This document shows positions 1 through 17,700 of a stretch of 64,000 bases of DNA, one piece after another. Where the stretch lies: contig NW_001799533.1 in assembly GCF_000165425.1 (NCBI RefSeq), positions 189,127 to 253,126 on the forward strand. Reading direction: 5' to 3'. A program made the translations under genes and the position numbers. This stretch comes from Paramecium tetraurelia (taxonomy: Eukaryota; Ciliophora; Oligohymenophorea; Peniculida; Parameciidae). Every line of letters begins with the position of its first letter. The first letter of the stretch is position 1. The notes below the pieces were generated by a model, which ran no database searches, was not told the DNA's origin, and was given only the letters and a program-made list of their open reading frames with translations.

Positions 1-1512
1 ATAGGTAGTAACATTATTAATTATTTATAGTGAGATCTTTCAGGAAATCCCTCTGACCAAATGTACCGATTTCTAATTTAGTGATCCTTCTTTGAATGCT
101 TACTTCGATAAGTCGGATCAAATCTGGTATTGTTTAGACTGGAGTTCCATTCGTCAAATTGTGATCGAGGGAGGTTTGGAATCCTCCAAAGACTAATCAT
201 TGTAAATCATAGTTAAACAATGCACTACAATGTATATGATTAATTTAAGCCTAGTACCTAATGTACATATCCAAATATATTAGATAGTGATTAATTCATA
301 TTTAAAATGACATCAGCCAACACAGACATATCTAATTTCAAAACACCTGCATCTCTCATTGGCAAAACCTTCAGTCTTACATCTCTGACCAACTTTGCCA
401 AAAAACTCAATATCATTCTTTAACCACAACAAACACAAACTGATAATGGATACATCATTCAAGACTAGTATTAGGAAACAATTCTTTCTATTTCCAACTA
501 TTACGAAACTATCCTGGATAAAGATTCTGATAAACATATCTTTGAAATCAACATTTCACTGGATCAAAAAACCTTGGTTACTTAACGATCCTACCCAAGA
601 GTCTATCAATTCTTGGGAGATATTGGAGGTTTCTGGGAAATCATCTTTCTTTGTTCCCTCTTGTTCATTATGCCTTTCAATAATTTGTCATATAGAGTGG
701 CTTTATTAAATGAACTATTCAATTTTGAATTAGATTACGACAATAAAATACATCCTGAAAATAGGGGCAGTACAAAAGTTAAGGAAATCTTATCTAAATC
801 TGTTTAACTTGAAAAGTTCAATAGGATGTCCAAAGTGGCAGATCATGATGAATAATAAAAATCTAAATTACTAGATTAAATCTCTAACGATATTACCCAA
901 TTTTTCTAGGAATAGGAAAGCAAACTAGATCTAAAATTTTTTGATTATTTTGGATGTTGCCAATGTAAAAAGGGAGGAAAAAGAGACCTCATTAATTTCT
1001 CCATGGGCAAAATCACCCACACTCTGGATATTACTTACATCATTAAAAAACTACAAGAAATCGATAAATTAAAGCTGATTTTATTGAATTCCGATTAAAT
1101 CAAACTTTTTGATTATTTGCCTAAACCTAAATTAGGGTTGCATATGAAACCAAGTGAAAATGAATATTGCTCCATCCTAAAGCCAGAACTATCTGATCTA
1201 GACAAGGCATTAGAAGCTTAGAAAGCCTTCCAAGCCCTACAAGATCACCAAGATGACATCACACCTAAATTGGTAAAACTCTTAGATGACGATCTTGTGT
1301 CCCTATTCAAATTATAACTAAATAAAGGTGTAAATCGGTTCGTTAAAAAACCAGCTTAATTGGCTGATGCAGTTTAGTAATTAATGCTCATGAATGCTAA
1401 GGAAAAGGAAAAACAGAACGAGAAAAAAAAGGACAAAAAATAAAAAAAGAAGAAACAAGATGAATCTAGCGATTCCCAAAATTCTGCATCATCTGGCTCT
1501 GAAAAGGAATGA
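1..1512 (+). CDS. Ciliate multi-exon transmembrane protein, 5' end outside window
   Basis: This is the 3' part of a gene read with TAA/TAG as Gln. Exons are 1-4, 31-231 and 255-1512, separated by introns of 26 nt (5-30) and 23 nt (232-254); splicing the second removes an in-frame TGA at 308. The N-terminal part seen here is Cys- and aromatic-rich, like an extracellular domain. A hydrophobic segment follows around 630-690 (FWEIIFLCSLLFIM). The rest looks cytoplasmic, with a CCQC motif near 955 and a Lys/Glu/Ser-rich tail. The layout resembles the large Paramecium/Tetrahymena families of putative transmembrane proteins with a C-terminal helix and long charged tail; that is an impression, not a database match. 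Function unknown. Stop is TGA at 1510-1512. Confidence 0.75.
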
Positions 1513-1770
1513 AAAACTATATAATCTATACATCATCACATTTAATAATCTTTTTATAATTATCATTTACTAGCTTCTTTTTATATTAAATTATTCACTT
1601 TTGATTATCTATTTATGGTTTATACAAACATAGTTCAGAAATAACCAAAATTATATAATATAATACTTTATATATAAATATATATATAAAATTTATATTT
1701 TTTCTTATCAATCCTATTGTTCCATATAAAAATGATAGAATTATTAAAATAAATTTAAATGTATATATAT

Positions 1771-2364
1771 ATGATGAAATTAATACTTCAATAAAATTAA
1801 GAAAAAGAATAAAATAATATTTCAGAAACAAATAAGTCACAAGGAAGCAATATTATTGCTAAAGTCACATGTATTGGAGTGGCTTCAGCATCAAGTTTGG
1901 TTGCAGGATATGTACAAGTAATAAGACCAATAGGTCCCCACTTTTCTAAACGGAATTTGATGTAAGGATGTGTAGCAGGAGGGATGGCTGGAAGCATAAC
2001 AGGATTTATTTTTGGAACTTTAGAAGGATGTGCTTATAAATTGATTGGACACTAAGAAACAAATATTTTTGAAATAAGTAAAAGTAGGAGTAGGACTGGT
2101 GCTAACTGCTGGATGTTTGGCCTTATAGGAGAATTTATAGGAGAAGTTTATGCCACATTATTGGAGGTAATATTCGATGCAGCAATTGAAAGAGGGAAAC
2201 TTAAATATAAAGTACCAGAAGAGAAAAAGGAAATTGAGGAGAAAGAAGAATTTGAAATTTTATAGATAGAAAGCAATATGGAGGATGATGATGATTTTGA
2301 AATTCTTTAAATAGAAAGTAATAATGAGGAGGAGGATAAAAATAAAATAAATTAATAAGATTGA
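1771..2364 (+). CDS. Small glycine-rich membrane protein with acidic repeat tail
   Basis: A 197-codon frame opens at ATGATGAAA and closes at TGA 2362-2364 with internal TAA/TAG as Gln. The first 30 residues are Gln/Asn-rich. Two glycine-rich hydrophobic stretches follow (CIGVASASSLVAGYV and GCVAGGMAGSITGFIFGTLEG), which look like a glycine-zipper membrane hairpin, then a third around 2110-2190. The tail is Glu/Asp-rich and holds two copies of an FEILQIESN unit about 15 residues apart. Near 2083-2127 another frame also reads as hydrophobic, so an unrecognised splice there cannot be excluded. Function unknown; glycine-zipper hairpins occur in pore-forming and mitochondrial inner-membrane proteins, but nothing more specific supports either. 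Confidence 0.6.
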
Positions 2365-2401
2365 TATTGCATTTAAATTAGTACTACTTAATACTTTATA
2401 T

Positions 2402-3361
2402 TCATTGCAAAATTTCTTAAAGTATATTTTTTATCAACTTAATACATTCCTCCAATAATTTATCATAGGATTCGTATTATTATTTATCTTGTCTTACATT
2501 AGGAAATAGCTCTAAAACTTCACTAATTTTTTTGGTTAGTCTTTCGATTTTGTTAGAAATTATGTCATTTTAGTAGAGCTATTCATTATCAATAATATTG
2601 TTAATTAAATCTTAAATTTCTTTGTTCTGTAGTGACACTTAAGTTGATTTTGATTTATGTTGTAAATTCAAATATAAAATTACTAAAAAAGTTTATCTAA
2701 AATAAATAGCATTTATTACATTTAATCTAAATGCATAATTTTGGCTTAGAGTAATTACTAAAAGTCTTTTAATTCTCCATCTTTGTTTCGCTATATCAAC
2801 CAGGATGCTTCATATAATTTCTTAATTTTTTAAAAATATCCTTGTTCAAGAATTAGTTGTGGGTCAATAGTTTAAATTATATGACTAAAATTTTCTTGTG
2901 TTTCAAGGAATTTAATCACAATATCATTCTTGGGTAATTGCTTTTTGATATCATTGAGGTAAATTTAAAATTTCTCCTTTCTTAAATTTAAAACCTCTCG
3001 ATTCTCTTGAACATAGCTCTTTAAATAGTAAAATCCCGATTCCTTGGGAGGAAGCAATTTTTATATAACTTCAGGATTTTTTTTAAATAAATATTCTGAG
3101 AGCAATTCGAAATCGCCATATCTCCTTAGTACAGTAATGTTCCCGGATTTGATTGGGTAATAATAATGAGAGTTTTGGTAAACTGGGTCATCAACTAAAA
3201 TAACTTAAGAAATCTCTTATTGCTGCTCTGTCAATAGATTAAAGAGTTCCTTATTGGAAGAATTATTCTAAAGTATGTCTTTCATTCGATTATTAATCAT
3301 GGCTTCAATTTTCTGAGCTAAATAGTTGAAAAATAGATTTACAATTGAGAAGGTTATCCAT
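2402..3361 (-). CDS. PX-domain protein (sorting-nexin-like)
   Basis: Minus-strand gene with two introns (3318-3342, 25 nt; a 23-nt intron near 2710) giving 303 residues. The middle carries a PX-type core: VLRRYGDFELL, then LLPPKE and an ENREVLNLRKEKFQIYL helix. These correspond to the RRYSDF, PPK and R..xLxxYL landmarks of phosphoinositide-binding PX domains. The C-terminal half is helical and probably coiled coil, as in sorting nexins, which bind PI3P on endosomes and help sort membrane cargo. I chose the start at 3361 because an upstream in-frame ATG at 3478 lies inside the last exon of the Rab gene, only 49 bp away. That spacer is mostly a TA repeat. The exon sum is divisible by three. Confidence 0.75.
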
Positions 3362-3410
3362 ATGTAATACTATTAATTTATATATATATATATAATAGGG
3401 TAAAAATATT

Positions 3411-4131
3411 TCATTAAGATTTAGCACAGCATTGATTATTTTTAACTGCTGCTGGTTATTAGAATTATTTGAGTCCATTCTGATCTAGATGAACGGGTTT
3501 TCTGTTGGAGGCCACTGTTTACTGTTCAAATTATGATTAATTAACTAAAAGTTAATTGAAATAAGAGTACCTTATGATTATGTTATGAGTAGAGAGTGCT
3601 CAGTGGGCAATGCCAAACAAATTTATTCCATGGCTTCTTCGATTCCCTTACCTGTCTTGGCACTCACTTCATAATAGAGGATATCTTTTTTGATGGCATA
3701 TTCCCTAGCTTCATCTGCACTGACCACTCTTTCTGCATCTATTTTATTTCCTAGAATGACAATGAGAGCTTCATTGCCTCTTGTTTATTTCACTTCTTTG
3801 AACCATCTATCCAAACTTTCGAATGAATGTCTAGCTAAGAATATTAAAATATATTACATGTGACATCAAAAACGATAACAGCGCATTAAGCATCTCTGAC
3901 ATATCCAGGAATCAATGAATGAAATCTCTCTTATCCAGCAGTGTCCCACAACAATAAGCGCATAGTTTTTCCATCAATAGTCATATTTTTGCTTATGAAA
4001 TCAATTCCAACAGTGGGCTGAGATTTTGGATCGAATGTATTTTATACAAATCGTTCGATTATACTTGTTTTACCCACAAACGAGTTTCCCAAAAAGACTA
4101 ACTTTTACTTTTATCTTGCTTCTGATTACAT
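3411..4131 (-). CDS. Rab-family small GTPase, Rab6-like
   Basis: Three exons (introns of 23 and 26 nt) encode 223 residues. All G motifs are visible: P-loop GNSFVGKTS, switch I with TVGIDF, WDTAGQERF, GNKID (for NKxD) and SAKTG. The IDFISKNM and RSLIP-like HSLIPGYVRD segments are closest to Rab6, which controls retrograde Golgi traffic. The C-terminus is a Gln/Asn-rich variable region with a double cysteine followed by four more residues (CCAKSQ), so geranylgeranylation is plausible although the CC is not terminal. Splicing the second intron is needed to reach this tail; without it the frame would run into the neighbouring PX gene. Subfamily assignment is by motif recognition only. Confidence 0.9.
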
Positions 4132-4260
4132 AATATATTATTTTAGTATTTAATTTGAAATACATCACTCAAAATTCTAAAAAGAAATTTAATTATCTCT
4201 AGGATTTTTCATCGAGGTGTATCTTAAGGTAATAAAATGTGTAACTTTAAATTAAATATA

Positions 4261-6024
4261 TCACAAGATTCTTAATTCACTATATTAATTCCAAATGTAA
4301 GATTTTACGTTTTCAAATATATCCCCAACTTTTCTTAGTTTCATGTAATAAAATCCATTAATTAGTATAAGTTCATAAAGATACTTATATTGTTCAGTGT
4401 TCAATAACTCGTGTTCAGTCATATTGCAAAACACGCAAACAACCTAAATATAGATCTGCAATTTACCTACACAATTAAATTGATTGACGTGATGTATATG
4501 CCAAAAATCATCCCATAATATGCGATTTATTCGACAATACTAATGTTTGAAAACAAGGGCAGGAAGTAAAATAAAGTAATACTAAAATTATTATTCGATA
4601 ATGTATAAAATGCAGTGTAGACATTAATTACAAACGTTATGAAGTAGGATAACAATAAGATGACATAGAAAAAATGATTTGTGTTGTTTATGCATTTATT
4701 CAAGTAGATGGAGTGAAATTGAAATCCTTTGACCTAGATAAATGAGATTATTTTTTACACATAAATTACAATGATCACAATGGTACACTTGTGCTTTTTA
4801 AACTATTTTGCATTTTGGACAAGTCCTTGTTATTTCGAAAGTCAAAAATTGCTCATCCTTCTCAAAATGCAATTTGACTGCTCTCAACAATTCTGATAGA
4901 TTCTATGAATTCCCATATTCCACATCATCTTGATTTTCTCCCAAGTTGATCTCCTCTTCCAAAATGTGATGTCTATGTTCCCCATCCCCATGGTGATGAC
5001 ATTCATAACTTATCTTGGGATGTCCCAAACCCTTAGATATCTTTTTGCCTTCCTCCTGTCTGCTTGTAGTTTTAGATATAAATATAATGCAATAAAATAA
5101 ACTGTAGAGTGTCAGAATTAAGGAAATTAAGGAAATGCTATATCCATAGACGTCATCATTTTGCAATCTCCAAAAATTGTTCACAACAAGAACCCCAATT
5201 ATAAAATAAACTACACCTATAAATGAATATTAAACGAATCTCGTATTGTGCTTTTTTATGAATTATTGGTACTTCACAGTTTCAACTATCTTTTTTATGG
5301 CTTAAGTCTTTAAATCTATTTCCTTATTAGGCATAATGTCTGGGTATGTCCTAAGCAAATATTCGACAGCATCGTTCGAATAATTAGAAATTGCTCTTAT
5401 CAATGGAGTCTTGCCCTTAGAATCCTGCTGATTATAGGATTTATCGCCTTCAAAATATTTGAGCATATACACATCATTTGTATAGGCAGCCCAATGCATT
5501 ATGGTACATCCAGCATTATCTTTGACATCTGTGTTGGCTTGCAGAGCAATCAAGTAGAGTGCAATCAAGTGGTGGTTACATTTGGTGGCATAAAGAAGAG
5601 GAGTAAATTATAAATTATCTTAATCGTTGATCTTGTTTCCTAATTCTATAAAAAGCTAAACCAACTCTTGGTTTCCAAAGTGACAAGCCATCATTAAACA
5701 GCTTTATTCAATTTGAGATTTATTCAAAGGATTTGCACCCTTGACAAGTAGGTATTTGATAATGTCCTATCTTTCGAATGAGATTGCATGATGAATTAAT
5801 GCATAGCCTGTGGAATCTAGTTCATCCAAATTCTCAGGAGTATGCAATACCAACAAATTAAAGTTTCCAGATTGAATTTCTTATTCAAAAAAGATTGGCT
5901 ATTATCTGATTATGTCCTCTAAGTCTTCTTGTACATATTGCTATGGCTGAGGTATCAATTTAGAATCATGAGATTCACTATTCAATTCAAGAGACTCATA
6001 TTCGTCCAAAACATTATCACTCAT
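4261..6024 (-). CDS. Ankyrin-repeat DHHC-type membrane protein with lost catalytic motif (QFHS)
   Basis: Three exons (intron 4734-4758, 25 nt; a 23-nt intron near 4450) encode 571 residues. Residues 60-260 carry ankyrin repeats (for example GYALIHHAISFERQDIIKYLL). About four membrane segments follow, with a cysteine-rich domain between the second and third. That domain matches the palmitoyltransferase spacing exactly: C-x2-C-x9-HC-x2-C-x2-C-x4-[DHHC]-x5-C-x4-N. The DHHC position, however, reads QFHS (4710-4721), so the acyl-carrying cysteine is a serine. A MTEHE segment past the last helix resembles the TTxE motif. Architecture is that of HIP14/Akr1-type S-acyltransferases of Golgi or plasma membrane, but this copy is probably not an enzyme of the standard kind. 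It may bind or retain substrates. Confidence 0.85.
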
Positions 6025-6082
6025 TTTAATTAATATAGTCCTATAAAACTTAGAATTATATATAAAAATATTAAAATTTAAT

Positions 6083-6516
6083 ATGCGGGGATTTTTGAGC
6101 CTTGCCAAGACCATTGTTTATTCATCTTCGATTGTTAAGCCTACCTAATAAATAAAAATGCAGTTTCGATTGTATAGAAACATTGATATGTTAGGGCAAA
6201 TCAACAATTGGCTTCTTAATTCAGGTTGTGTTCCACCATTCAAATTTTGAGATTGATCAATCTACAAGGAGTTTGTTCAAATTCACAATTAGAAGAAGCA
6301 GATGGTATTTAATAAATCTTGATAAATAGAACAAGATTTGGAGTCAACCATTTCCAAAATACTTTCAGTAACTCTAAAAAGCAATACCGAGAAGCATCAA
6401 TCCATAACTAAATGATAGCATATTTGGTTTATATCTAAGATTAAATCAAAATATAAATTAAACTGCATTTTATATCTAATTATATCTTTATGCAAATAGA
6501 CGATTTATAAGATTGA
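6083..6516 (+). CDS. Small protein with putative mitochondrial presequence
   Basis: Two exons joined by a 23-nt intron (6172-6194) give 136 residues, with an exact multiple-of-three exon sum. The first 45 residues lack acidic residues and are rich in Arg, Lys, Ser and hydrophobics (MRGFLSLAKTIVYSSS...), which looks like a mitochondrial targeting sequence. The remainder is Gln/Asn/Ile-rich with no motif I recognise. It sits between two minus-strand genes, convergent with the CK1-like gene and divergent from the ankyrin/DHHC gene. Nothing identifies a reaction. It could also be a fortuitous frame, though the intron has the right size and borders. Confidence 0.45.
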
Positions 6517-6580
6517 AAATAAAATAAATAGTTTTGAGCATTACATTCACACATTTTTGAATCCACTGGATGCCTTTTAT

Positions 6581-7947
6581 TCATTCTAAGGGTGATGTCT
6601 AATTAAATAGGAGAATGTACATCTCTATATTCTATTTCTTTAAGTGATTATATCTAGTAAACAAAGTATCGACGGCATCATCATCCTGAGATATGTAATC
6701 CTACTTTGAGTCACATTCATTTGCCATCTGACTCAATTAATAAGTATTTTCTATTGACTTATTTAAATCATCCGGTTTTAGTAACTAAATTTACGAGATA
6801 TTTTAAAACGATTTCTTTCTCTCCTATAAAATATCCTGAGTCGATGGTACTTTCAATGAATGACTACGATAATCCAAAAACATTACCATTTATTCGTTTT
6901 AGAAAAAGGTGTCTTCTCAAACTATTGCAAAGAGGCAACCTATATAATTTGGTTTTCTTATTTTTGACTAATACTATTAGGGTTGTTATTCTAAATTGTC
7001 CAATCATAAACATCATCGTAATCAATCTTCCTAGACTGTGCCAATTTCCTAAACAACTAAATCAAGTAGTCATAGTCAGGATCACTCTAATATTACAAGG
7101 ATCTTATATATCTATTTTATAATTATTGTCATTATGTACTCTAATGCTTTTGCAAATTCTATCGGCAAGTCTATGCAAATTTCTTAAGGTGTCATTTTGA
7201 TTTTCTTTTCACCCACCTATTTTTGGCGTTCCTTGTTATTCTAGCCTAACATGTTTTACCATGGCAAAGATCTAAATTCTAAGTTAACCATTTTAGTTTA
7301 CCCTTTCAACATGAGAATATCAATATATATTATTGATTCCAAATCATCCTTCCTTCCTATTTCGTATCCCTTATGCGCTGCTATAGGAGCATACCTTGTC
7401 GTACCCACAAAAGATCTCCCATCTTTAAATGGACTAAAATCAATCGAAATTATTACACATGCTTTAAATTATTATCTCTATACAGCTTACTAATCCCAAA
7501 ATCCACAATATATATCTGTTTAGAATGGTACATTATATTTTCTGGTTTCAAGTCTCTGTGCACTACTGATTTGTTATGAATTCGCCTTATAACTTATAAT
7601 AAGTAATCAGTTATTATTAACACTGTTTTTAGTGAAAACTTTCTAAACTCTTTGAGATAAGCCCCGATATCCTTACTCAATAACTATTACACTAAAACAT
7701 TTGAATTATTGTCAGTTCCACTCCAGATTAATTTAGGAACTCCTTAAGTACCCTATAATCTTGTCAAAATATGTATTTCCCTATCCAAAGTTGAATTCTT
7801 CTCCTTTTTCTCTATTTTCACAGCAACCATCTGATTTTTTATAATGTCCTCTGCTTCAAAAACCACCCCATATGACCCTGCTGACAATTTTTTCTTCAAA
7901 CGGAATTGGTTGTTAATCACCCTATTTGGACTGCTGGGAGAATTCAT
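6581..7947 (-). CDS. Casein kinase 1-like protein kinase
   Basis: Five exons (introns of about 23, 30, 28 and 23 nt) encode 420 residues. Kinase landmarks: LSAGSYGVVFEAED (glycine loop, ending in the less usual SxGSYG), VAVKIE with the ATP-anchoring Lys, HRDLKPENIM, VDFGIS in place of DFG, and CK1-type KHVPFKDGRSFVGTTRYAP with RKDDLESI and SLPWQNM. The KHxPxxxxxxxxGTxRYA block and LPW motif are diagnostic of the CK1 family, which phosphorylates acidic or primed serine/threonine sites in many pathways. The last 120 residues form a Gln/Ser/Asp-rich tail without a known domain. Start is the first ATG of the open frame. Several CK1 paralogues are expected in Paramecium, so no orthologue is claimed. 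Confidence 0.9.
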
Positions 7948-8765
7948 ATTTTTAATAAATTAAAAAAAATAAAAATTCAACTTTAAGCTTTTTCTAAGCA
8001 TACATCAATTAATGAATTGACCTATTTAGATAACTTAATTCAAATTATAATTAAATCTAGCGATTTACAATTAATTGTTAATTTTCTCAAAACTTATATC
8101 ATACTCACTAATCCCTCCCCTTCCTTAAAATAAACATCTTCTCAACCTCAATCACCCATTATTCATACTTAACAATAATTACTCGCTTATCTGGACGTAA
8201 ATTAGTTAAATATTACTTGATTTAATGTATTTAAAAAAAGAATGGTAATAATTTACAAGTATGTAAATATAGATAAAATTTATAATCATAACTAATCGAT
8301 TATATATGGATAAATCATATTTCATCTAAATTTAAACTATTAACATTTTATCAAATCCTGATTAGTCAACAATAGAAATGATCTTCTTTGTCTCTTACAA
8401 CTAGTTCATACTTATTTTTCAGATGTTCGCTAAACAATTAATCAACTTACTTAAACCCCTTTATAGAATAATTATAAATTATGCTATTAATTATTAAATT
8501 CTACTAATTAATATATGTAGAAACAATAAAAGTGAAATGTTAACTAATGATAAAATATTCTTTCAATAATTTTAACTACTTATTTTCCTCATCAACAAAA
8601 TTTTAATTAATGTTATTTGAGACTTTTTAGCTTAAGTTATTTTTTAATTATTTTTGTGGATCTAAATTTAATTGCTATATATTTCTCATTAATTCTTTCG
8701 ATATTTTTTTCATTGTTTTTCAATTGAACTTTTTGTTTTTAGATTCTGTTTTAAGTTTTAATCCA
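7948..8765. other. A+T-rich stretch upstream of the CK1-like gene; no gene seen
   Basis: Very A+T-rich sequence with short homopolymer runs. No frame with coding-like composition or plausible splice structure stands out on either strand. It contains the upstream region of the CK1-like gene. Confidence 0.4.
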
Positions 8766-9170
8766 ATGGCAGGTAATTAATAAATTAAATTTTTTTAGAT
8801 CTACATCTATTATAATAGCGAAATAGGGGGAAGTAGGAGGATTAACAGATGAAGGTTAATTCTCATCAATCAATCAACTTTAAATGTGAATGATAATTAA
8901 GAAAAAGCATTTAAACTAATGTAAATGAGTAAAATAATTATTATGTATTTTAAACTCAGAGTGAGGAGATTGATCAAGCTTGGCTTTATATTGGCATTCC
9001 AATTTATTGAGATTCAAGCAGGGTTTAATCGAGGAAAAATGCTTTGATCATTGGATTTTAAGCATGTAATCTACATCTTTCCAATTGTAAATTCCAATCA
9101 CTCTACTTGATTTAGATTTACGGTTTTGGAATTCTTAGCTATTTTGAACTATTCATTAGTGAGGTTTTAT
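8766..9170 (+). pseudogene. Possible decayed small gene with two in-frame TGA codons
   Basis: ATGGCAG at 8766 is followed by a good 26-nt intron (8773-8798). The spliced frame then stays the same for about 370 nt, broken only by TGA at 8891-8893 and 9008-9010. The pieces between look protein-like (for example EEIDQAWLYIGIPIY, then ALIIGFQACNLHL). Either this is a relic, or a 32-residue peptide ends at the first TGA, or I have missed introns. No family is recognised. Confidence 0.25.
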
Positions 9171-9534
9171 TTTTTTTTTATTTTTTTTTTTGAAATAATC
9201 ATTTTATTTATTTCCTTTTATATTATAATATATTTAATAGAAGGCTTTTAATTATGGTTTATAGCTTTTCTGTATATCAATATTTCTGTTTATTGCTAAT
9301 TAATTGATATTAGTTTTTAGTAGAATTTAAAGCAATAAATGTATAATTAAATTAAACTATTGTTGTCTCAAGAAAAATTTCTAATCTCAACTACTAAAGT
9401 TAATTTGACGTATCTCAATATTAAGAACCAAAGCTCTGAACCTTTATGCACTGATATTAAATTTAATTTCAATAGTCTGATAAATTATTTAAAGGTTATT
9501 GTATATTAAATATATATATTTAATAATTTCTTGA

Positions 9535-12500
9535 TCAAACTCTACTACCAAAAATAGAGCTTAAGGGTCTTCCAAATTGACTGTGTTCTTACTCGGCATC
9601 AGCATACGGATCCTCGATACCTTTTTCTTTAAGAATCTTTTTGAAGTTTTTAATCATCGATTCATTGGCTTGCAATTAGTTAAGTGCAATTTGCAATTAA
9701 TTTTACAATTCTACGTTCTTTTAGAATTCAAATGGTTGTAATTTTTATTTATCGAAATTGGGGCCTCTCAATATTTTACCCATTTTATTATTCTTTTATG
9801 GGAGCGATTATAATCTAGCTTAGGCACTTCCTTATTTGTTGATATTCAAAGCTTAAGGCAATATTGGTTACTAAGATTATTACATTACGTCTTCGTTCAT
9901 CATCTCTACATTTTACTTAGGTTATTTAAGAATATAAATACTTCTCCAATATTTTTACCAAGTTTAGTTTGTAAAACTTTAATTTCTTATTTAAATTTTT
10001 CATTTTCTTTTTTATATTTGTCATTCTCAATTTTCAAATTCGATTTTTCAGTTTCATAATCCTTACATTATTTCCTAATTTCATTTAATTCATGGATTAA
10101 TTGTTAATTCTCACTAGTTCTTTTATAGATTTCTTTTTCTCTTCTAACCATCATTTTTTCTGTACTAGAATTAATTTGAATGGCACTCTTTTCTAAATGA
10201 TTAATATGTCTATTCATTTCTTCAATAGAACGAGGATCATTAGAACTTTATTTAATTTCTTATTGTAGCACATATCTTTAATACAATTTGGTCATTTCTT
10301 TTTTCCATTCCTAAAATAATAAAATCATATTACCTTATCATCAATATAATGAACACAATTGTGAATGTCTCTGGTAATATTTTAAATGATATTTTCCTTC
10401 TTTTTTGTAGTTTAAATTTATAAATTTAAATCATGAGTAAGAGCATTAGTTTTGCTACTTTCTTCATTGATTTTTGAGTTTAATTCGCTATTTATTTTTA
10501 ATTACTTTGCAAATTCACTTTCTAATCTAAATAATTCTTCCTTTAATTTTTCAATTTAAGCTTCCTTTGGTTCTAGTGACTTCTTCATTTCAGTGGTTCT
10601 AAATGATAGAACATGTTTAGATTTTTGTAAAACATTAATTTTATCTTTGTATTCTGAAATCTTTTTATCTTTTTTCTTCAATTAATCATCCTTATCTTCT
10701 AAATCCTTGCATTAAACATCAATTTTGGTTTCAGCCTCTTTAAGGTTCTTTTCTAATAACTAATAAGCTTGTTCCTTCTCTTACAATCTTTTGTCTAACT
10801 TTTCATTTTCTAATCTTAATTCCTATACTAATTTCTGCTCTTATTTAAACTTCGAGTCTTTTTCAGCAAGTAAACATTTAAGCCTATCAATCTCTTTTTT
10901 CTATCTATCATTCAAATCTTTAATTTCAAATTCATGATCTTCTTCTTATTATGCTAAAATCTCTTCATAAGTTGCCTTCAATTGATCTGCCTAATTCTAA
11001 TTATTCTCCAAAGCCTTGGCTGTGATTTAGAAATTCTTATAAAACTTTTCTTTCAATTCATCAATATATGATGTATGTTTCGATTCAAATTCTTTGGCTT
11101 AAGCTTGATTTCTTCTTCTTTCCTCCATCAAATCCTATTCCAATTATAGGTATTTTTCATTTTCAAATGCTAACTTTCTTTCATATAAATTTTCTAACTC
11201 TTCAACAGCTTTTAAATGGTTATTTTCTACATTTTTAAATAAATTAGCAGATTCCTTTTCTGCAGATGACTTTTAAGCCTTTAACTAATCATAACGAGCA
11301 GCCCAGGCAGCAATTTCATTATTCATTTACTTTTCAATTTCTAATTTCTCCTTTTCAACTTTTCTTTTCTCCTCCTACACTTTGAAATCTGTCTTCTAAT
11401 CAAGATCTTACAAATCATTATGTAGTTTCTTCATTTCAGCAATATAGGTTTCAATCTCATTTCTAGAGACTAACAGAACATCAGCTAAATTTTCATCAAC
11501 AACTCCAGCCTTAGGATTAATTTTATCTATATCATCCATCTATTCTTTAGCTTCTGCTCCAGTCTTGGAGGCATAGATTTAACCATCATTCGAAATTTCA
11601 GAGACTTAATATATGAAAAGAGCACCATCAGATCCAGTTGAAAACACATATCTGCCATCTGGACTGCATTTAATTCTAGTAATCTCTCCTTGATGGACAG
11701 GCATGGTTTCAAAAGCCATCTGATTAAATATATAGGAATATATTTTGATTTAGCCATTTTCTGTACCTCCAATAATTCCAAATTAATTATATAAGGATTA
11801 AATATAAGCTAATTAAGTTAATTTTTATTGGCCAAGATCATGGAAATGATGATCCTTGCCAGTGCTTATTCCATTCTAAACAATCCTCTATTCTCTAACT
11901 ATGTATTTGGTATCAATCTTGTCTTGTTCTGTTTTATCTTTAGTGCTTTCAGTTCCTGCAGCTATCAACATTCCAATTGGAGGATCATAAATCAAGGATG
12001 TATACTTATTAGTATTATAAACATAATCCTTCCTGGACCAATCATTGGGACTCCACTCAAAGATACTACCATCTAATCCACAACTGGCCAAAAAGGTATC
12101 TTTGATTCCCCAAATCAAATCAGTTATTTGATTACTGTGTCCTTTTAAAGTGTGCATGAATTCCATCGTGTAGGCATCATAGATATTAATATAATAATGA
12201 TTGCTTTTAGCTCTTGGATATGCAACTGCCAACATATGACCTCCTTGACTAAATTTCACTTAAGTGCAACACTTCACAGCCATTTCTTTATAAGCACGTA
12301 ATTCACTATGCAGAACATGGAAAATACGTAACTTATCTTAAAATCCTGCTGCCAAATAATAACCTGTTGGATGAAAACCTACTGAACATAAAGGTGAAAT
12401 GTCTTGGGTTGTACTTTAATTTTCTTTTGTTCCCAGACCTTATTAATTACCATCATCTCCTAAATAAAATTTACGAGCCAATTCGCATCTAGGATAGGCA

Positions 12501-13822
12501 TAATTCCATATTCTAATTGTGCTGTCATACTTACTTGCCGTCACTATCAATGGTCTTTATAAACAGACATCTAAATGTGTAATTGGGGCATTATGAAACC
12601 CATTAAATAAAAAATCAAATTTAACTTCTCTCTTTAAGAATTTCTCATTATTTTTATATGATTCCAAACACTTCAGTTGAGTTTGGCAATACTTGCCCCA
12701 TTTCAATTGTGCAGATATCATTGTTTGAGAATGCTACTGCAACTAAATCTTCTTGTTTTGTTATATCCATACTGACAACCTAACTCTTTCTTTCGCATCT
12801 CCATTTTTTTAAGAATTGTAAATCCATTACAACTTCAATACCATCTTCTGTCTTCTATTTATCATGATCGTCACCTCTAATCCAAAGTGCAAAATGTCCA
12901 CTATCTGATCCAACCAAGAAACCTTTTGAAAAAGCAATCAAAGAAGAAACTCCAGGGCCTCTAATGTCATTAAAAGCATTATTTATATATTGTCTTACAT
13001 CATTATCATGAATGATGAAAATTTCAGCCTTGTCATTTGCCAATATCACTTTGTTCTCTTCAAACCATGCATGGTCAGTAAATGTCTAAATCGGAGCCAA
13101 TCTCTTAATTTAATCAGTTAATGAAATAAAGGAGTTTTCTTAAACTCTTAAAATTTTAAAGTAATTTTTTCCACTTACAGCCACCATATGATTGTCCTTA
13201 GGAGAGATCGAAATTCTGGTTAGTTCCTATCCTATTGCAGATAAAGCTAAATGCTTCATTCTAATCAAATCTACAAAAATCAATAAATAATCAGGAGGTC
13301 CTGTCAAACAAAGCAAGAATCTAATTGGGATTCAATATTTAAATATTACCTTGAATCCGTATGAGAAAATGCCATACTAATAAATGTTGATGATTTAGTA
13401 TCTAAATATTTATACGGTTTTTTCTCCGCTTCCATTTTACTAGGATGAGCTTTCAAATTATAAATTACTAACTATGGAACTGTTTCATTTTTCATTTTTT
13501 CTGCAACTGCTAATGTCCTAATAAAATTAAATAGTGTTTTCAATACCTCTTGTTTGGAGCGACAGTCATGCAGGAAACAATATCTAAGTTATCCGATAGT
13601 CTGATAAATTGAGTATCAGGTTTATCAATAAACTTCTAGGCTATGAATTTACCAACTGGATATAGTAATCTTCTTTATTCATCTAATAACTTAATATGTT
13701 CATTCACTACCCTCTATTATGCTTATGCTGTCTTTAAATTTCGCTGAACATAAACTACCATATGATTATATCACATCCAATTTAAGTCTTCTATCTTCAT
13801 TTCTTCGTTTCTTATCATCCAT
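9535..13822 (-). CDS. CFAP57: CFAP57/WDR65-like axonemal WD40 coiled-coil protein
   Basis: A long multi-exon gene. The 5' two thirds encodes WD40 repeats: SPNRRYLA-like MTVAPNKRTLAVAE near the start, then PGVSSLIAFSKGFLVGSDSGHFALW around 12.9 kb and HTLKGHSNQITDLIWG and LASCGLDGSIFEW around 12.1 kb. The 3' part (about 11.4 to 9.6 kb) is an unbroken charged coiled coil. This order, length near 1,400 residues and the motifs fit CFAP57 (FAP57, WDR65), a cilium axoneme protein involved in assembling inner dynein arms. Introns I could place include ones of 31 and 29 nt near the start, 23 nt near 10.33 kb and 26 nt near 9.92 kb. The protein ends SSIFGSRV. The start exon depends on the 31-nt intron, so the first 16 residues are less certain. 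Confidence 0.85.
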
Positions 13823-13850
13823 TTTAAAAATAATTATTAATATTATAATC
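13823..13850. promoter_or_regulatory. 28-bp divergent intergenic spacer (shared promoter region)
   Basis: Only 28 bp separate the start codons of the CFAP57-like gene (minus) and the secreted-protein gene (plus). The spacer is pure A/T apart from two C/G bases. It must hold at least parts of both 5' leaders, so promoter elements probably extend into the genes or the two are co-regulated; no specific box is visible. Confidence 0.5.
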
Positions 13851-14389
13851 ATGAAATCAGAGATTATTCTAACTTTATTATTCGTTTCAGCGTTGGCAAC
13901 TGTTGAGAGAGATGCAAATCAAGAAGCACTAGAAGGAGTCTGGTCCTATTTTAATAAAAAAGGACCATTTACAGTCTCCAAATGCGGCTCTGACTAAGAC
14001 CACAAGGATGCCTTTTTATTTACAGGTTATTTCTTAAGAAAAGCAGACATTGGCTCAACTTCTGAAATTAATCCATTGATTGCCGAAGCTGAATAATTCT
14101 ACTATGTATTAACTCAATCTAAAAACATTAGTCTTTGCCACTTGAGACCAGAAACTGCTTTGAAAGCAACGAAGAAGCAATTGAACTTGGCAAATTCTTG
14201 GGACTTGAGTAATATACTCAAGATGAACTAAAAGATAAGGTATCTAGTTGGGTAGGAAGTCATTTCTTTATTTATAAAAGACTAATCAAAGCAGCTGGCA
14301 ATGATTGGAATAATTGGAAAGATTATAAATTAACCGGAAAAGACTTGGCTGAATTATTACAAAGAATTCTAACTGACTCTATAGAATGA
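13851..14389 (+). CDS. Small secreted protein, unknown function
   Basis: Two exons joined by a 26-nt intron (14106-14131) encode 170 residues; the exon sum is divisible by three. The first 18 residues (MKSEIILTLLFVSALATV) form a classic signal peptide. The mature part has two cysteines, several Trp/Phe residues and no further membrane segment, so it is probably secreted or lumenal. Without the intron the frame after it loses its composition bias, which supports the splice. I do not recognise the family. It is transcribed divergently from the CFAP57-like gene across a very short spacer. Confidence 0.7.
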
Positions 14390-14702
14390 GTCATCATCAT
14401 AATAAAAATAAATATGTTAATATTTATCTATTTTATTCTATCTTGCATAGATATATGTTACTTTCTCCTCCATACAATATTTGTTTTAATATTTTATTTA
14501 GATACTTCTTCATATTCATAATATCCAAAAATCTATATAGAATATTTATATTTTTTAAATTTCACCTCTTATTTAAGAAACTTCCATTTGGTGTTCCCAC
14601 CATCATAATTCTTTCATTGTATTTAATTTATTGACGAAGAAAACTGCTTTTTGATATTTATATAGAATAATAAATATATAATAAGTTGCATAAATATTAA
14701 AT
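14390..14702. other. Convergent intergenic stretch; nothing recognised
   Basis: About 310 bp of A+T-rich DNA between the 3' ends of two convergent genes. A plus-strand open frame here lacks coding-like composition. No RNA gene or repeat is evident. Confidence 0.4.
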
Positions 14703-17700
14703 TCATTATTAATCCATGTAATCTTCCTCTCCTCCTTATTCTTCTATTTAAAGTGCTCGACCAAATGGGAAAAATTTAGTCTCTTTTTCTTGTATACATT
14801 TATTTACATATTTCTCCAAAGAATTACAATCATTCGCATCTTTATTTTTAATATAAATGATGTAATATAACATATGATACACATTATGTTCTAAGTAAAT
14901 ATGATAATGCCAACCTTTTGTACCTCTAATATGAAGATAATTGAAATTGTTACTTTGTATCAATATCATTTTTCTCTTAGCTACAAATAAAGCACTTTCC
15001 TTCGATTTCCTTAACCAAAGCTTGTCTTTCATCTCTTAATTCGCCAAAGGTATCCAATATGATGCCGAATATGATTTAGATAAAAAGAATATTGAAAATG
15101 ATAAAGAAAGTAAAATCGAAGAAGTATCTGCCCCAATATATTGTGGGATCATCATAAGCATCAGGATATTTAGTCAAAGATTCACCTAAGCCACCACCAT
15201 TTCTCAATCCAAAATTGATTGTTGAAGTAACAGCAAGAATAAATGTCTAGCCATAAACTCCACTTTCATCATCAAACATTGAGTCAAAATTAGAGAATGC
15301 AATTATAGCATAAACTAATAAACCAATTAATCCTAAGAATGAAAATATAGCTAAATTTCGACCATTGGATGTTATTGATCTAATGATATTTTAAAGATCT
15401 TCAGATCGTTTGATGATATCTAATAAGAGTACAGCATAGATGTAAGGGTTAAAGAAAGCATATACAGTAAGGCCAAAAATGCAAATCTAGCATAGATGAA
15501 TATAACTTACATTGTAAAAATTATCAAAGTCAAAAAATATCACCAAAATTAACTGCTTTATTGGATTGTGATTCACTTTATCTTCTTAAAATGCAGATTC
15601 AAAGTATCCTATTAAACTATAATATTTCATCGTCAACCATGAAATCTAAAATCCTGCTTCCTTTTTTAAGATTTAAACTCTTTTTGCATTTGTCTGGCCT
15701 CTATTATATGTAATAGAAATAGGATATCTTTCAATGGCACAAAAGAACACAATAATTAGATTTAAAACCAATTAAACGATAGTAATTATCTAATATAAAA
15801 TAAAAATTCTATACATTATTTAAATAACTAACGAAGCTTTCTCCAGTTGTCACATCAGTATCTTCAGGGGCTTCAGTATTAGATCCTATTTTACTATTTA
15901 TTACAGTATCATGCATAAATATAAGTAGAATTACAAATATTAGACATAAAAGGAAAGATATATCCTTTAACAATCTCCAATACACAGCACCGAAATGCAT
16001 AACTTTTTTATTATTAATGTATTAAGAATGCCTCATTTGAACCTAATAGAATTCAGAAAACTCAATCAATCCTAACATTCTATCTTCATCTGTTTCTCTG
16101 TTGATTTCATAGATCAAATGTTGTTTAATATTTGGAGTTATAAAATTGCAAACAAAAGGTTTTTAAAAGTATACTTTTTCTAATTAATTGAATTCATTTT
16201 GTATCTCTATTCTTCCAGTAAATTATCTATAAAATTTAAAAAACCTTTGAGTTCTATCAAATTAATAATTTTTGTCCTTCCTTACATCCATCATGATATT
16301 TTTAAAGCTTAAATCATTAAATTTCATTTCATCTTTATGCAACAATCCATCAACATCTTCTTAATTATAACCACATTAGCTTCCTTAGTTTAAAGGTAAT
16401 ATTTTTGAAATAGGCAGAATGTTTTTTCTTTATTGTTCCTCTTCTTGGATATCATCTAAATCCAACAGGTCTTCTTATTCTTCTTACTCTTCATCAAATT
16501 TGAACAAGTCCAATTATTTATCCTGTGGAAAATGTTCTGATAATTTCAGACATATGGTAAATATATTAAACCCAGTTTATATTAAAAGATTATCTTCATC
16601 TGTTCTTAATCCAAAATGGCATAAACTATTAGTACAATATCTATGAATTCCTGTTTCTGATTCATCACAAATGTTATCTAAAATTATGTTCTTTTATTTT
16701 GATTTGATTCTTTCTTCATATATAGATTTGCATATTCTTATCAAAATACTAATATCAACAGTTTTTAAAATAAATTCTAATGATTAAATATCCGCTCTTC
16801 CTTAGGTCAATAAAAGGAGTAGTTTAATAAATGATTACAATGTCTAATATAATCCATATTTCTTTTTTCCTTCTTCTGAACCAATCCGATTTGTATCTAT
16901 CACTACTTCTTCCTCCAATGATTAATTCATTAGTTGTCTTTCCTTTAAAATCATTTTGTTTTCTTCATAAAGCTAACTGAAGCTTGTTAGGTCTTATTTT
17001 TGCAAAATTGAATTTAGTAAAGTAAATAATCTTGTGTTTTTACATAATTCTTTTTTATTTTCCACATAACCTGTAGAAAATTCAACTAAACTCTCTAAAG
17101 CTTATCTGTAGATATCTTATAACTTATAAAATACTTTATATCCTTTTTCTAAAAGATCAGCTAATAAACTAGCAACTTCATTTACAATATTGATATTTGC
17201 TTAATAAGAATCATCATCATATTAAAATACTAGAAATTTCTGAAATTCAATGTTTACATTTTCACACATAGCTTAGAGTAATTATAGGACTTTGAGACAG
17301 AGTAGTTTATATTCAGTAGTATCATTTTCAATTAATTCTAACTCTTTAATTTTTACATCTAAATCAGTCAAAAAGAATCTTCTTAAAAATATTAAAAACT
17401 TTTATTTCACATTTTCTCCCTGTAACAATTTGTAAAATTTCCTTTATATATATTCATTTCCAAAATCTAATAAATGAATAAGAAAAGATAATGCTTCAAT
17501 TTTATATTGATCATCATCTGTTTAATTCAGCATATCTAATGCCAATATATCAAGTTAACCATCAGCCATAGCCCTTTAAAATTTTATATATATATCTTTT
17601 TTTTCTCTCACAGCTTATTTAGATTGTTCATCTTTTGCTTCAACCAAAGAATCTATTTCATCTTGAGTAGGTCTTTTAAGCTATAAAAATATTCTGCATA

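Follow-up and report, generated by a model that had tools for sequence, protein, structure and literature searches.

The window, a 64,000-nucleotide stretch of contig NW_001799533.1 of the ciliate Paramecium tetraurelia, carries on its minus strand, at positions 4261 to 6024, a gene whose predicted product combines N-terminal ankyrin repeats and hydrophobic segments with a cysteine-rich domain of the DHHC palmitoyltransferase family. The tetrapeptide at the DHHC place reads QFHS, with Ser standing where the acyl-accepting Cys is expected (Table 1). A sequence-only reading of this DNA had reported this replacement, and it is borne out both by the spliced reading of the gene and by a second copy on another contig (C134). 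For translation we used genetic code 6, in which TAA and TAG encode Gln and TGA is the stop; this code, the size of the introns and the size of the gene family are all suggestive of Paramecium. The intron proposed earlier at 4734-4758 likewise stands: its removal, together with that of a second intron at 4444-4466 that we add to the gene model, gives a frame of 571 residues, and its place is repeated in the C134 copy.

Membership of the protein in the DHHC family is supported by a match to the Pfam DHHC domain (PF01529) of 71.1 bits against a cut-off of 28.7, extending over residues 397-526, and by sequence matches to solved structures, namely ERF2 (E 3.7e-8) and ZDHHC20, ZDHHC9 and ZDHHC5 (E 9e-6 to 3e-4). 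The upstream region matches the Pfam Ank_2 family with 84.5 bits, its best stretch being residues 77-169. Hydropathy, which is of limited precision, points to four hydrophobic segments with the cysteine-rich domain placed between the second and the third; the C134 copy has the same four and one further marginal peak (1.64 at a cut-off of 1.6). A fold prediction of exon 1 only, made with no alignment, had a mean predicted local distance difference test (pLDDT) value of 41.1 and was unused for conclusions.

The domain itself reads CPKC-KIVQKAQVY-HC-DH-C-NL-C-VKGF-QFHS-IYLNK-C-INNT-N in the window. All eight zinc-ligand positions, six Cys and two His at fixed spacing, are intact in both the window and the C134 copies; seven of these are positions that we take to be the ligands, while the second His of the motif is assigned from the literature. 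Sequence, Pfam matches and hydropathy fit the earlier proposal that zinc binding, ankyrin repeats and membrane helices are kept. The spacing C-x2-C-x9-HC-x2-C-x2-C...x5-C-x4-N was also described correctly, but the accompanying claim that every other position of the domain is kept does not hold. Against the consensus printed in PMC4192757, the (R/K)PxR motif reads QKAQ in the window and QKPQ in the C134 copy, and the xW(V/I)xNC(I/V)G motif reads IYLNKCIN in the window. The TTxE motif after the fourth transmembrane segment (TM4) reads TEHE in both QFHS copies, and a DPG motif after TM2 was found in neither of them.

The QFHS motif lies only four codons past the first intron, and the reading therefore depends on that intron. 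This is the point in favour of an artefact, be it a sequencing error, a wrongly placed intron or an alternative exon that supplies DHHC. However, the second locus agrees in intron place as well as in motif. Positions 4601-4800 were read without splicing and also after excision of one of 10 GT...AG stretches; in none of these readings did DHHC appear after the sixth Cys, and no DHHC-like tetrapeptide occurs unspliced in the six frames of 3301-7300. Hence none of the splices tried gives the DHHC that an alternative transcript was earlier said to be able to restore, and the same QFHS at a second locus makes a sequencing error at 4710-4721 very unlikely. On the strength of the C134 agreement and of these splice and frame scans we reject an artefact, the chance of which we consider next to negligible.

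Table 1. Features of the ankyrin-DHHC-like gene, in window coordinates (aa, amino-acid residues; nt, nucleotides)
Feature	Positions	Strand	Remarks
Whole coding region, ankyrin-TM-DHHC-like protein	4261..6024	-	571 aa + TGA; start, stop and both intron places as in the C134 copy
Exon 1	4759..6024	-	422 codons: N-terminus, ankyrin repeats, TM1-2, first half of cysteine-rich domain
Intron 1	4734..4758	-	25 nt, GTA...TAG, phase 0, right after sixth Cys of domain
Exon 2	4467..4733	-	89 codons
Intron 2	4444..4466	-	23 nt; C134 counterpart 24 nt, same position
Exon 3	4261..4443	-	60 codons + stop TGA
Ankyrin-repeat part	5305..5889	-	aa 46-240, limits set by the authors
Hydrophobic segment TM1	5182..5238	-	aa 263-281, hydropathy
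Hydrophobic segment TM2	5080..5136	-	aa 297-315, hydropathy
DHHC-type cysteine-rich domain	4659..4821	-	aa 402-447, split by intron 1
QFHS at the DHHC place	4710..4721	-	aa 427-430
Hydrophobic segment TM3	4617..4673	-	aa 443-461, hydropathy
Hydrophobic segment TM4	4429..4508	-	aa 498-516, split by intron 2, hydropathy
TEHE at the TTxE place	4408..4419	-	aa 520-523

Replacement of the catalytic residues

The consequences of the QFHS tetrapeptide can be read against the mechanism described for zDHHC20, in which Asp153 polarises His154, His154 deprotonates Cys156 and His155 coordinates zinc (PMC10622425), while Thr241 of the TTxE motif contacts Asp153 (PMC10622425, PMC7586229). In the order Asp, first His, Cys, second His and Thr, the corresponding residues of the window protein are Q, F, S, H and E. 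The last of these depends on an alignment of the TTxE motif by its preceding N and its terminal E, under which the region reads NMTEHE in the window, NLTEHE in the C134 copy, and NMTRNE and NKTYFE in two further variant genes on C166 and C223, as against NRTTFE in the intact ankyrin-linked gene L059. Intact genes vary at this place too: several have TT (TTKE, TTYE), and L053 and L052 have TAIE and CTLD, respectively. The window protein has substitutions throughout the known catalytic set and retains the structural zinc His. Since the Cys, its His base and the Asp acting on that base are all gone, the protein is very unlikely to transfer acyl groups by the known route. The deposited sequences 7khm (zDHHC20) and 6bms themselves read DHHS, which indicates that the fold can accommodate Ser at this site.

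A residual or unconventional acyltransferase would have to bind acyl-CoA and let the client Cys attack it directly, with no acyl-enzyme step. Consistent with such an activity, the zinc ligands are retained and the Pfam domain is still matched. However, the Cys, first His, Asp and TTxE Thr are all lost together, the (R/K)PxR motif has departed from its consensus in both copies, and mutation of the first His alone abolished palmitate transfer by Erf2 (PMC10622425). We accordingly regard a residual activity of this kind as improbable. That the protein is non-catalytic had been proposed from the Cys replacement; the case is now stronger, since the loss extends beyond the Cys to the DHHC Asp, to the first His and to the Thr of TTxE, and we consider the window protein very probably inactive as an enzyme. 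It may serve as a binder or regulator, as was also suggested earlier.

A duplicate copy under purifying selection

When the genome, 69 Mb in 231 contigs, was searched at the DNA level, the window gene was recovered together with one other copy, that on contig C134, which is 78% identical over the full gene. It has introns of 26 and 24 nt at both of the same places and the same QFHS, and the frame is open in both copies; at the protein level 455 of the 567 aligned residues are identical. The neighbourhood matches too, six pieces of window positions 3-10295 aligning to a 10-kb stretch of C134 when window positions 1-16000 were compared; we therefore infer that the two genes are products of a larger duplication, such as a whole-genome duplication would give. 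Within this block, window positions 3366-4193, with a reading frame that we named by eye as a Rab-like small GTPase, are reversed relative to C134, and the flanks keep the same orientation; a single gene thus seems to have been inverted between the two blocks.

We estimated the ratio of non-synonymous to synonymous substitution rates (dN/dS) between the two copies over 567 codons, using our own script for a codon model of the Goldman-Yang type. It is 0.07 at a dS of 1.5, with a likelihood-ratio statistic of 347 against dN/dS = 1; a dS above 1 is imprecise, and the conclusion of purifying selection is independent of its exact value. Taken by part, dN/dS is 0.06 in the N-terminus, 0.024 in the ankyrin repeats, 0.22 in TM1-2, 0.29 in the next loop, 0.028 in the cysteine-rich domain (residues 399-447) and 0.064 in the rest, the ankyrin part and cysteine-rich domain thus being under the tightest selection. 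The QFHS codons themselves differ by two synonymous and no non-synonymous changes.

These values bear on the possibility that the gene is a non-functional duplicate in the course of decay. In favour of it, decay is a frequent fate of duplicated genes, and DHHC sequences of poor conservation have been described in Trichomonas (PMC4109852). Nevertheless, a dN/dS of 0.07 at a dS of 1.5, with the frame open in both copies, is not what decay would leave. A ratio near 1 between paralogues had been named earlier as the sign of neutral decay, and run on this pair the comparison does not find it. With selection this strong and the second copy intact we reject neutral decay, for which we would allow only an extremely small chance. 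Hence, by the codon comparison, selection maintains a probably inactive form in both duplicates.

Variant DHHC genes across the genome

A DHHC family search of the genome returned 127 matches at E <=0.001 and 145 at E <=10, which, merged by eye, correspond to about 115 places in this one genome; for human, 23 DHHC genes are given (PMC8107437). We examined 54 of these places, chosen non-randomly (the 20 best matches, 14 weak or last-listed ones, the place in the window, 10 that match its protein and 9 additional ankyrin-linked ones), leaving about 61 unread. A tetrapeptide could be read at 52 of the 54, being DHHC at 44 and of the form xxHS at 8. The latter are QFHS in the window and C134, HFHS in C166, QMHS in C223, HHHS in C215 and C187, DFHS in C222 and EFHS in C156. 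The Cys is Ser in all eight, none of which has lost the zinc His or the zinc Cys that follows; the Asp is changed in seven and the first His in six. In interpreting these counts, it should be kept in mind that the ranking of splices used scores or a model favouring DHHC and that the genes are mutually non-independent. Conservation of the first six ligand positions among the rows is by construction, as the search pattern imposed them; the second His and the later Cys lie outside the requirements of the final pattern, though the splice ranking favours them.

Thus one genome separates catalytic from zinc positions within a single tetrapeptide: among the eight variants the fourth position always changes, the first and second mostly do and the third never does. 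This provides an independent check on the mechanism inferred from the zDHHC20 structures. The replacement of the Asp in seven of the eight variants is to be set against the comparison in PMC4192757, in which the motif Asp is absolutely conserved among the yeast, worm, fly and human DHHC proteins included.

Several of the variants and weak places have features of their own. The HHHS pair (L021 in C215 and L022 in C187) has Asp replaced by His and Cys by Ser and retains both original His; the codons around its motif are nearly identical, and a His at the second position stays near the Ser. The EFHS gene (L072, C156) has an intact DHHC gene as a neighbour at a distance of about 2 kb. Another place (L073, C211) reads EAHC, with the Cys kept and the Asp and first His changed, at an ambiguous splice. 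At the weak place L074 (C91) we saw no domain.

The uniform choice of Ser calls for a further possibility to be weighed, namely that of a Ser-based acyl-enzyme or O-acyltransferase, which would form a Ser oxyester and acylate another class of target. Ser replaces Cys in all eight variant genes read, so that selection for Ser, and not tolerance alone, may be at work, and two of the eight, the HHHS genes, retain a His at the second position. Against this, neither the Asp nor the first His stands beside the Ser in the QFHS pair; moreover, Ser is nearly isosteric with Cys and its codon is one base change away from a Cys codon. We judge a Ser-based enzyme highly improbable.

Ankyrin-DHHC genes were recognised by an ankyrin match that precedes a DHHC match on the same strand, positions being compared by eye; with 150 of 377 ankyrin candidates scored there are at least 16. 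Among the matches listed, the 16 ankyrin-DHHC tetrapeptides comprise 12 DHHC, found at C206, C108, C36 and nine more loci, and four xxHS, found in the window, C134, C166 and C223. For a phylogenetic tree we used the cysteine-rich domain minus the tetrapeptide, in 51 rows of 60 columns; apart from the eight variants, the other 43 rows are all DHHC, and L069 (DHHC), L073 and L074 are omitted, as they are from an earlier tree of 42 rows. The four ankyrin-linked xxHS genes cluster (91/80) separately from the 12 intact ankyrin genes (92/87). Both trees carry warnings, with few columns and long branches, above all those of L068 and L072.

Intron positions were also compared. The position of the first intron of the window gene is common to C134 (26 nt) and C166 (25 nt) and absent in C223; of nine intact ankyrin genes, six have an intron right after (N/D)NC, two have one slightly downstream of that point plus a second in the early part of the domain, and the remaining gene lacks an intron there. 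Given the tree grouping together with these intron positions, the inactive-looking ankyrin group is probably a lineage of its own and not a recent casualty of the intact group. In approximately unbiased (AU) tests neither a single ankyrin clade (p 0.194) nor a single xxHS clade (p 0.161) is rejected. The Cys changes needed are three on the 51-row tree and four on the 42-row tree, and in view of the AU tests and the weak tree both counts of losses are provisional. The DFHS gene (L066, C222) groups with two intact DHHC genes (89/87), and this grouping is a hint of a separate loss.

A candidate non-catalytic partner and its known relatives

Taken together, the window gene encodes an enzyme-family homologue without the catalytic residues that is held by selection, which, as far as can be told from sequence, is what characterises a pseudoenzyme. 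We consider it quite probable that its product is a conserved pseudo-palmitoyltransferase, in which the acyl-transfer residues have been lost and the zinc ligands, hydrophobic segments and ankyrin repeats kept. Domain scores alone would label this gene a palmitoyltransferase, which is probably wrong. In the simplest model for such a protein, its ankyrin part would bind a client protein and its DHHC body would anchor that client at the membrane, probably in a position beside a partner enzyme. The partner could be an active DHHC transferase or a membrane enzyme of another kind, and the protein would act as a client-presenting or client-sequestering adaptor. A precedent for the first step is zDHHC17, whose ankyrin domain binds clients and, when fused to zDHHC3, brings that enzyme a new client (PMC8059564, PMC8107437). 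The specific role of adaptor or client presenter is suggested by such analogies, and we hold it to be possible at somewhat below an even chance.

Several points weigh against this interpretation. Yeast Swf1 and Pfa4 are partly active without the DHHC Cys, according to a review (PMC8107437); zDHHC13 is active with DQHC, i.e. without the first His (PMC4192757, PMC8059564); and the third-position His is itself variable in eukaryotes, Akr1, Akr2 and Pfa5 having DHYC (PMC8107437, PMC4192757). Furthermore, the proposed adaptor role draws on what ankyrin domains do in general and on an insect precedent without ankyrin repeats. The activities of Swf1, Pfa4 and zDHHC13 mean that neither loss of the Cys nor loss of the first His alone proves inactivity; the window protein has lost all three catalytic residues jointly with the Thr of TTxE.

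That insect precedent, the nearest one, is GABPI (CG17257) of Drosophila, which likewise has a natural Ser for Cys (DHHS) and was judged likely inactive (PMC4192757); it has been called non-enzymatic and suggested to be a substrate presenter (PMC9374236). It differs, going by its description, in that the change is reported at the Cys only and ankyrin repeats are absent, whereas in the window protein the Asp, first His and TTxE Thr are missing as well. In layout the closest counterparts are zDHHC17/HIP14, zDHHC13/HIP14L and yeast Akr1/Akr2, which likewise have N-terminal ankyrin repeats before the helices and the DHHC cysteine-rich domain. These proteins, as described, keep the Cys (DHHC, DQHC and DHYC, respectively) and are active, and six transmembrane domains are given for zDHHC13, zDHHC17 and Akr1, as against the four segments that hydropathy finds in the window protein and the four plus one marginal segment in its C134 copy. 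Within this genome, the 12 intact ankyrin-DHHC genes among the matches listed share the order of ankyrin repeats followed by DHHC; they differ in that their cysteine-rich domains form a group separate from the four ankyrin-linked xxHS genes, although the AU test does not reject a single ankyrin clade. Trichomonas vaginalis also has a multiplied DHHC family whose members vary in their conserved motifs (PMC4109852). There, conservation of the HC, C and DHHC parts is described as strongly correlated, whereas in the present genes the two come apart, the zinc ligands being retained and the catalytic residues lost.

Accordingly, a Ser-for-Cys DHHC protein is already known in GABPI, as are poorly conserved DHHC copies in Trichomonas. 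A literature search over parts of open-licence papers found no ankyrin-DHHC group that has lost the catalytic set including the TTxE Thr and yet kept the zinc ligands, and no report of several such genes in one ciliate genome; the portions of PMC4109852 and PMC3567180 consulted describe no ciliate pseudo-DHHC gene. More broadly, one might conceive of pseudo-palmitoyltransferases as having arisen several times in this ciliate lineage and forming a standing class, with at least eight Ser genes retaining the zinc His and one ankyrin clade without the whole catalytic network, whose members would act, much like pseudokinases, as non-catalytic partners that present clients to the numerous active transferases or withhold them. 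We offer this as a tentative proposal that is rather unlikely to hold in full. To our knowledge, pseudoenzymes have been well studied among kinases and hardly at all among palmitoyltransferases, and the genes described here are concrete, conserved cases in which non-catalytic roles of DHHC proteins can be tested.

Elsewhere in the neighbourhood of the gene, an open reading frame on the minus strand at window positions 2668-3525, for which no search was made, encodes a stretch that by eye resembles a PX domain.
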